Shown here one piece after another: positions 5,928 through 9,167 of a stretch of 10,184 bases of DNA. The notes beneath the pieces were generated by a model. That model worked only from the letters and a program-made list of their open reading frames with translations. It had not been told where the DNA came from and made no database searches. Each line of letters starts with the position of its first letter. Position 1 is the stretch's first letter. Origin of the DNA: Candidatus Zhuqueibacterota bacterium (GTDB taxonomy: Bacteria; SM23-31); assembly GCA_022562855.1 (NCBI GenBank), contig JADFON010000043.1, forward strand, positions 1 to 10,184. Direction: 5' to 3'. The position numbers and the translations under genes were made by a program.

Positions 5928-6794
5928 ATGACAGAAAAAGTAGAAAAAAAGAAAATCAAAGCAAAAAAGACTACAGAAACTCCATCAAAGGAGAATACCG
6001 GGTCAAAAACAAAAGCCGATAAACCGGGGAAAGATACTGAGCCGAAAAAGATGACTGCTAAACGTGTAAAAGAACCGGTGCCGGTGAAAGAGAGTCCTGA
6101 GAAAAAATCTGCAGCCGCAGTGAAGAAGAAATCTGTGAAAAAGGATGATTCCGGGTCAAAGAAAGAGTTAACCGGGTCCAAAGAAAAAGTGAAACCGGAA
6201 AAATCTCAGAAAAAAACGAAGAAAAAAGAATATGTACCAAGATTGCACAAAAAATATTTAGACGATATCGTTCCGCAAATGACAAAGCGGTTTGGCTATA
6301 CGAATAAATTTGAAGTTCCAAAGCTGACAAAAATTGTTTTGAATATCGGTATGGGTGAAGCGCTCCAGAATAAGAAGTTGCTTGAAGCTGCAGTCGTGGA
6401 TCTTTCTATCATAACGGGTCAGAAACCTATAATTACAAAAGCAAAAAAATCAGTATCCAATTTCAAATTACGGGAAGGAAATCCTATCGGATGTAAAGTT
6501 ACATTAAGAAATGAACGAATGTTCGATTTCCTTGACCGATATATTGCAATAGCCATACCACGCATCAGGGATTTTCGGGGGATGTCATTAAAATCTTTTG
6601 ACGGATTTGGAAATTACAGTGTGGGAGTTAAGGAACAGATTATTTTTCCGGAAATTGATTATGACAAAGTGGAATCGATTCATGGTCTGGACATCTGTAT
6701 TGTTACTACAGCAAAAAAAGATGAAGAAGCGTTGGCGCTTTTGAGGTTTTTTGGCATGCCTTTCGTTGAAACTCAAGAAGCGCTGGAAAGCTAA
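5928..6794 (+). CDS. rplE: Large-subunit ribosomal protein L5 with a long lysine-rich N-terminal extension
   Basis: A 288-residue protein; bacterial L5 is normally about 180. Residues 102-288 are a complete L5: [17 protein letters not shown] (102-118), [15 protein letters not shown] (131-145), [23 protein letters not shown] (162-184), [11 protein letters not shown] (210-220), [23 protein letters not shown] (224-246) and LRFFGMPF (272-279). L5 binds 5S rRNA in the central protuberance and touches P-site tRNA. Residues 1-101 are extra: 35 Lys in the first 100 residues, only 15 Asp+Glu, many Ser/Thr/Pro, few hydrophobic residues, and (T/S)GSK three times (24-27, 75-78, 82-85). This looks disordered and strongly basic. 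ATG 5928 has a weak AGAAG (5916-5920). In-frame TTG at residue 106 and GTG codons inside the extension have no convincing ribosome-binding site, so I favour the long form, though an internal start cannot be excluded. Confidence 0.93.
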
Positions 6795-8443: not shown

Positions 8444-8944
8444 TTGGAAATCAAAAATCCTGCAGAAATCGAATTAAAGGAAAAAGTTGTACAGATTAAC
8501 CGTGTCGCCAAAGTCGTAAAAGGCGGTAGAAGATTCAGCTTTAATGCAATCGTTGTCGTTGGGAATGGTGATGGAATAATCGGCGCAGGATTGGGCAAAG
8601 CGAACGAAGTCGTAAATGCTATAACCAAGGGTGTTGAGAATGCAAGAAAAACACTTTTTAAAGTCTCCATAATCAATGGTACTATTACTCATGATGTAAC
8701 GGGTAAATACGGTTCTGCAAACGTTTTTATGAAACCCGCGTCCCCGGGTACCGGTATTATCGCCGGCGGTCCCGTGAGAGCAATTATGGAATTAGCAGGA
8801 ATCCAAAATATTCTCACCAAATCGATCGGAACCTCAAATCCTCATAATGTTGTGAAGGCGACATTGGAAGGTCTTAAAAAATTACTCGATGCCTATTCGG
8901 TTGCACGTAAAAAAGGAATTCCGATCAATCAAATCTATCAATAA
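8444..8944 (+). CDS. rpsE: Small-subunit ribosomal protein S5
   Basis: A 166-residue S5, a typical length. The N-terminal double-stranded-RNA-binding-like domain is visible at 13-77: [21 protein letters not shown], then [22 protein letters not shown] and [15 protein letters not shown]. The C-terminal domain has [59 protein letters not shown] (86-144). S5 lies at the mRNA entry site with S3 and S4 and influences decoding accuracy. The start is TTG at 8444, supported by AGGAG (8432-8436). The glycine-rich loop of the N-terminal domain, where spectinomycin resistance arises in model bacteria, is unremarkable here. The gene ends 19 bases before the rpmD start. Confidence 0.97.
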
Positions 8945-8963
8945 ACGATCGAACATATATACA

Positions 8964-9167
8964 ATGCCAAAAAAATCCAAAAAAGATACCGGTACAATCA
9001 AGATAACACAGTTTAAAAGCGCTATCGGATATACTAAGAGACAAAAGCTGACTATTGAGGCGCTTGGAATTCGTCGGTTGGGTCAGGTAAAGGAGCATAA
9101 GGATACACCGGAAATTCGGGGGATGGTACGGAAAATATCGCACCTTGTAAGAATTATTGAAGGATAA
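8964..9167 (+). CDS. rpmD: Large-subunit ribosomal protein L30
   Basis: A 67-residue L30. A short basic lead (PKKSKKDTG) is followed by the conserved core: IKITQFKSAIGYTKRQKLTIEALGIRRLGQVKEHKDTPEIRGMVRKISHLVRII read across 12-65. L30 is a small 50S protein that binds 23S rRNA; some bacterial lineages have lost it, and here it is retained. ATG at 8964 gives the usual length. The frame stays open upstream to 8889 inside rpsE, but that would add 25 residues without family similarity. No Shine-Dalgarno sequence is visible in the 19-base spacer after rpsE. Initiation may therefore depend on ribosomes finishing S5 or on an unstructured AU-rich leader. Confidence 0.94.
   Translation: MPKKSKKDTGTIKITQFKSAIGYTKRQKLTIEALGIRRLGQVKEHKDTPEIRGMVRKISHLVRIIEG

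Follow-up and report, generated by a model that had tools for sequence, protein, structure and literature searches.

A long lysine-rich N-terminal extension of ribosomal protein uL5 in the SM23-31 lineage, with counterparts in other bacteria

Ribosomal protein uL5 is among the most conserved ribosomal proteins and is located at the meeting point of 5S rRNA, P-site tRNA, and the 30S head; it holds 5S rRNA and touches H84, the P-site tRNA, and the 30S head. Fungal mitoribosomes without 5S rRNA have an extended uL5m. Lineage-specific disordered tails on ribosomal proteins are already well known, including histone H1-like, lysine-rich ones. In Cutibacterium acnes, a C-terminal tail of 31 residues on uL5 sits between H84 and H38, and other species-specific tails are found on uL4 (100 additional residues), uS9 (46 residues), and bS16 (65 additional residues) (PMC10085706). 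Mosquito RpL23a and RpS6 carry histone H1-like, lysine-rich extensions, as described by Hernandez and Fallon and cited in PMC11764897. The spinach chloroplast uL5c has extra N-terminal residues that are apparently flexible, 17 residues at the start of the mature protein being unbuilt in the map (PMC5071890). A search of the searchable open-access literature found no report of a lysine-rich N-terminal extension of uL5.

Such an extension is present in the uL5 (L5) encoded in the 10,184-nucleotide stretch of DNA analyzed here (the window), which belongs to a fragmented, about 80% complete assembly (G000; 2.5 Mb, 491 contigs) of the SM23-31 lineage. The rplE gene (5928–6794, forward strand) encodes 288 residues in a frame open from its ATG. 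It sits in the S10-spc operon, where uL5 is expected, with rplX (L24; 5585–5905, forward strand; of ordinary length by protein match and length comparison) adjoining it upstream and rpsN (type Z S14) following it. Residues 103–281 match positions 2–180 of the 181-position L5 model NF000585 (E = 1.9e-84), and the score of 281.9 bits, against a curated cut-off of 186, places the protein among the bacterial uL5 proteins; the Pfam matches (PF00281 and PF00673) cover residues 126–279. The conserved core, defined by these matches, spans residues 102–288 (6231–6791, forward strand). Since the NF000585 match starts only at residue 103, about 101 extra residues precede the core (residues 1–101; 5928–6230, forward strand), and they are delimited by their composition, open frame, and predicted lack of structure. 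An earlier note, made from the letters of this DNA, had counted 101 open codons between the ATG at 5928 and the L5 core, and the ORF and the NF000585 match bear this count out.

C. acnes resembles SM23-31 in having lineage-specific, largely disordered extensions (up to 100 residues) on uL5 and other ribosomal proteins, whereas its uL5 extension is C-terminal and short (31 residues) and that of SM23-31 is N-terminal, 101 residues long, and dominated by lysine. The mosquito tails are likewise long, lysine-rich, low in complexity, and independently evolved, but they belong to other, eukaryotic proteins without homology to the SM23-31 tail. The spinach extension shares the N-terminal position and the apparent flexibility, but is short and part of plastid remodelling.

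A stop-free stretch with the length and composition of the extension is expected in only 0.2% of random sequences under mononucleotide shuffling and in 0.8% under a Markov model, and the remaining two forward frames across it contain nine and five stops. The window genome offers other in-frame starts, namely a TTG at residue 106 (6243) and, within the extension, one ATG and several GTG codons, which would suit an artefact of annotation or assembly, with the true L5 start near residue 100 (e.g., the TTG at 6243) or with a misassembled contig. The relatives argue against such an artefact. Both other sequenced genera of the SM23-31 family carry a lysine-rich L5 extension at the same position (96 residues in G001 and 122 residues in G002), and both have a counterpart of the window ATG (5928–5930, forward strand), which lies 22 nt past the rplX stop; the distance is 24–33 nt in G001 and G002 and thus 22–33 nt in all three family members. 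Neither G001 nor G002 has a single ATG, GTG, or TTG from the first ATG to the core, so that a start near residue 100 would lack a standard start codon in these genomes and is ruled out. In addition, three separate genome assemblies concur, and an untranslated gap of 325 nt would be unusual for a tightly packed operon. An artefact is therefore extremely improbable. How far the L5 core lies from the rplX stop, a measure independent of the choice of start codon, was determined in 58 genomes of the relatives panel; the values in the three family members (325, 399, and 312 nt) are the largest of the panel, the median of which is about 26 nt (n = 58). The earlier note had proposed a comparison with relatives, and this comparison revealed the extension across the family and neither a stop, a frameshift, nor a usable start near residue 100. 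From these comparisons of gene sequences, the L5 tail is almost certainly real, translated, and lineage-wide in the family.

Outside the family, class members have L5 extensions of 4, 15, and 35 residues (G003, G004, and G005, respectively); the length is thus variable in the class, and the extension probably grew within the SM23-31 phylum. When the extension was used as the query, no related protein was found beyond its own genome among seven genomes in all, including both family members. A MAFFT alignment placed few lysine positions of the family extensions in register, as expected for low-complexity sequence. The predicted extension keeps its composition and not its sequence. A 28-nt repeat occurs inside it as three diverged copies (5988–6015, 6141–6168, and 6162–6189, forward strand), and these weak repeats (71–75% identity) suggest that the extension may have grown by duplication. 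Near-neutral growth of low-complexity sequence is a serious rival to any functional reading, although we consider it somewhat unlikely: the N-terminus of uL5 would face the solvent and tolerate additions, and A-rich repeats would expand by slippage or duplication and be kept as harmless, disordered coding sequence. The unconserved sequence, the internal repeats, the range of 4 to 122 residues within one class, and the unbuilt residues of the spinach protein all agree with such growth, and the gain, growth, and loss of the tail are also compatible with no specific function. On the other hand, each of the three sequenced family genera has retained a tail of 96–122 residues in a gene for which high expression is expected.

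The composition of the extension is distinctive. Residues 1–101 include 35 Lys, 1 Arg, and 16 Asp/Glu, 15 of the latter within the first 100 residues, and this recount reproduces the numbers of the earlier note (35 Lys, 1 Arg, and 15 acidic residues per first 100). Lysine accounts for 35% of the extension, compared with 9–18% of the L5 core and the other operon proteins counted, and hydrophobic residues account for 10%. Being lysine-rich, arginine-poor, and low in hydrophobicity, with Ala, Ser, Pro, and Thr present, the extension is histone H1-like in composition. It does not have the combined Arg, Gly, and Lys enrichment of the classic extensions that thread through rRNA; its contents of Arg (1%) and Gly (4%) are far under those of the classic extensions (15.9% and 13.7%, respectively; PMC2672003), so that tight rRNA binding is not implied.

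At the nucleotide level, 149 of the 303 bases of the extension are A, and the stretch lies at the 5' end of rplE. In E. coli, S8 represses the spc operon at the rplX-rplE boundary. An A-rich stretch at this boundary might control translation at the mRNA level, with the peptide as a by-product. However, the lysine codons of the extension (26 AAA and 9 AAG; 74% AAA versus about 77% in the other operon genes) are chosen as in its operon neighbours, so that the extension resembles ordinary coding sequence, and its GC3 also agrees with that of the other operon genes. In addition, lysine is kept in GC-rich lineages, and no Rfam match to a regulatory RNA was found at the rplX-rplE junction. Such an mRNA-level effect is thus highly improbable.

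AlphaFold2 was run on L5 with an alignment of 21 sequences that is nearly empty over the extension. The pLDDT values in ten-residue blocks were 50–57 for residues 1–90, 62 for residues 91–100, and 91–95 for the best core blocks, and no helix or strand was predicted ahead of residue 105. Because of the near-empty alignment, the low pLDDT of the extension would mainly reflect a failure to find structure and is weak evidence alone; the low hydrophobic content agrees with the disorder prediction. Taken together, the tail is very likely to be disordered. The extension has the features of lineage-specific disordered ribosomal-protein extensions, as it occurs in relatives, lies outside the consensus of the protein family, and has no predicted structure. 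The flexible, polycationic, H1-like tail proposed by the earlier note is thus supported by composition and predicted disorder.

Lysine-rich L5 extensions were also found outside the class, in 8 of the 53 panel genomes (30–59 residues). The longest extension found (159 residues, including 45 Lys) is that of a further genome, G128, which is unrelated at the phylum level; TTK repeats are seen near its start (L133/L198). The uL5 tails of the other bacteria (G012, G014, G017, G033, G035, G045, G058, G128, and others) resemble that of SM23-31 in position, in composition, and in starting in the rplX-rplE gap, but most are 20–60 residues long (159 in G128) and their sequences are unrelated, suggesting that they probably arose independently. 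The predicted lysine-rich extension is thus recurrent across phylum-level lineages and not unique to SM23-31. In G014 (L018), L5 has low-complexity tails at both termini (C-terminal ...PPAKPAGAKKAS). A scan of named genomes had also indicated L5 extensions in Sphingomonas and Clostridia, but the alignments continue upstream of the true start codons, and these proteins lack a lysine-rich extension.

The preference for lysine over arginine was examined in 11 lineages outside the class that were selected for a gap of at least about 90 nt, blind to composition. The K:R ratio was 96:21 in the extensions and 159:164 in the cores (Fisher p = 2.5e-10, a significance overstated because the test treats residues as independent). 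The safer measure is the count of lineages, 10 of the 11 showing the excess of Lys over Arg in the extension relative to the core. The exception is G053, whose long open frame ahead of L5 contains Arg and no Lys and probably begins at a spurious upstream ATG. In loci of at least 55% GC, the extensions had a K:R ratio of 116:20 and the cores one of 136:212; this set is biased because it was hand-picked and in part retrieved by resemblance to a query rich in lysine. The lysine of the predicted extensions in the GC-rich genomes is not explained by base composition alone, whereas a need for flexible positive charge would account for it. That Lys greatly exceeds Arg even where the genome is GC-rich and the L5 core Arg-rich also argues against near-neutral growth.

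The earlier note had regarded the change as specific to L5. This holds inside the S10-spc operon, where the other proteins have ordinary lengths in the family, but not genome-wide. Outside the operon, tails were checked in bS16, bL17, uS2, and bL25 only. In the window genome, the C-terminal tail of bS16 (L218, G000:C69:7573-7749 and downstream) is acidic and runs to 188 residues or more, the locus ending inside the tail, with 56 D/E, 17 K, and 3 R; G002 has a similar acidic tail of 138 residues (L221, G002:C192). A charged C-terminal tail is also found on bL17, with 49 residues in the window genome and 49–67 residues in the family (L214, L215, and L216). Since bS16 and bL17 are also tailed, the growth of ribosomal-protein tails is a wider habit of the SM23-31 lineage. 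The long tails on other ribosomal proteins of the window genome fit near-neutral growth as well. They also bear on the idea that the L5 tail acts beyond a single ribosome, as a tether to other ribosomes, to DNA/RNP condensates, or to the membrane in the style of a histone H1 tail. The H1-like composition and the precedent of H1-like extensions on eukaryotic RpL23a and RpS6 (PMC11764897) speak for such a tether, and it is conceivable that the basic L5 tail pairs with the strongly acidic bS16 tail of the same genome. This pairing is not general, however, since G128, with the longest L5 tail, has bS16 without a tail. We regard a tether, argued here by analogy, as quite unlikely.

The reading that we prefer, to which we give about an even chance as a whole, is a translated, flexible, polycationic L5 tail with loose binding to the rRNA of the central protuberance region. 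We propose this rRNA as the principal partner of the tail only tentatively, by analogy, and give it somewhat less than an even chance. Basic extensions of ribosomal proteins neutralize rRNA and can be required for assembly, as in L20 (PMC2672003), and uL5 contacts H84 and moving tRNA (PMC11711686). The C. acnes uL5 tail between H84 and H38 offers a precedent for such rRNA partners. L5 translated from the ATG at 5928 would comprise a normal core for 5S rRNA and the P site, and a nearly Arg-free tail of about 101 residues. The tail would emerge from the central protuberance where the N-terminal helix of uL5 lies, and would make weak, multivalent contacts, not specific to sequence, with neighbouring rRNA phosphates of 5S rRNA and of H84 and H38 in 23S rRNA. 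Its main action would be to capture 5S rRNA and 23S RNA during assembly of the central protuberance. After assembly, the tail would form a mobile cloud of positive charge, which might also reach tRNAs as they pass. Since only composition is kept, the target of selection would be the charge, the lysine content, and the flexibility of the tail and not any motif.

Compensation by the tail for a missing 5S rRNA is ruled out for the family, because 5S rRNA is normal in G001 and G002. It is also normal in G004 and G128, and was not found in G000, the assembly of which is 80% complete. The tail would thus be an addition and not a replacement, as 5S rRNA is normal where found. Compensation for a loss of bL25 is likewise ruled out, bL25 being present in G000. 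A broader proposal is that polylysine-type tails of uL5 arose repeatedly in bacteria as a module with a function, under selection for the charge of lysine and for flexibility and not for sequence, that tunes the assembly of the 5S RNP and central protuberance or ribosome-ribosome contacts; SM23-31 would have one of the longest, alongside a bS16 tail of opposite charge. We consider this broader proposal rather doubtful. A long charged tail on uL5 that recurs in independent lineages, with Lys in large excess over Arg, provides a comparative handle on the purpose of disordered ribosomal-protein tails. It also calls for care in annotation and in phylogenies of ribosomal proteins from which such regions are trimmed. 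In the same window, the L30 ORF as listed (8889–9167) starts ahead of the likely start (MPKKSKK...), and its apparent N-terminal extension, which overlaps rpsE, is probably just a mechanical ORF start.
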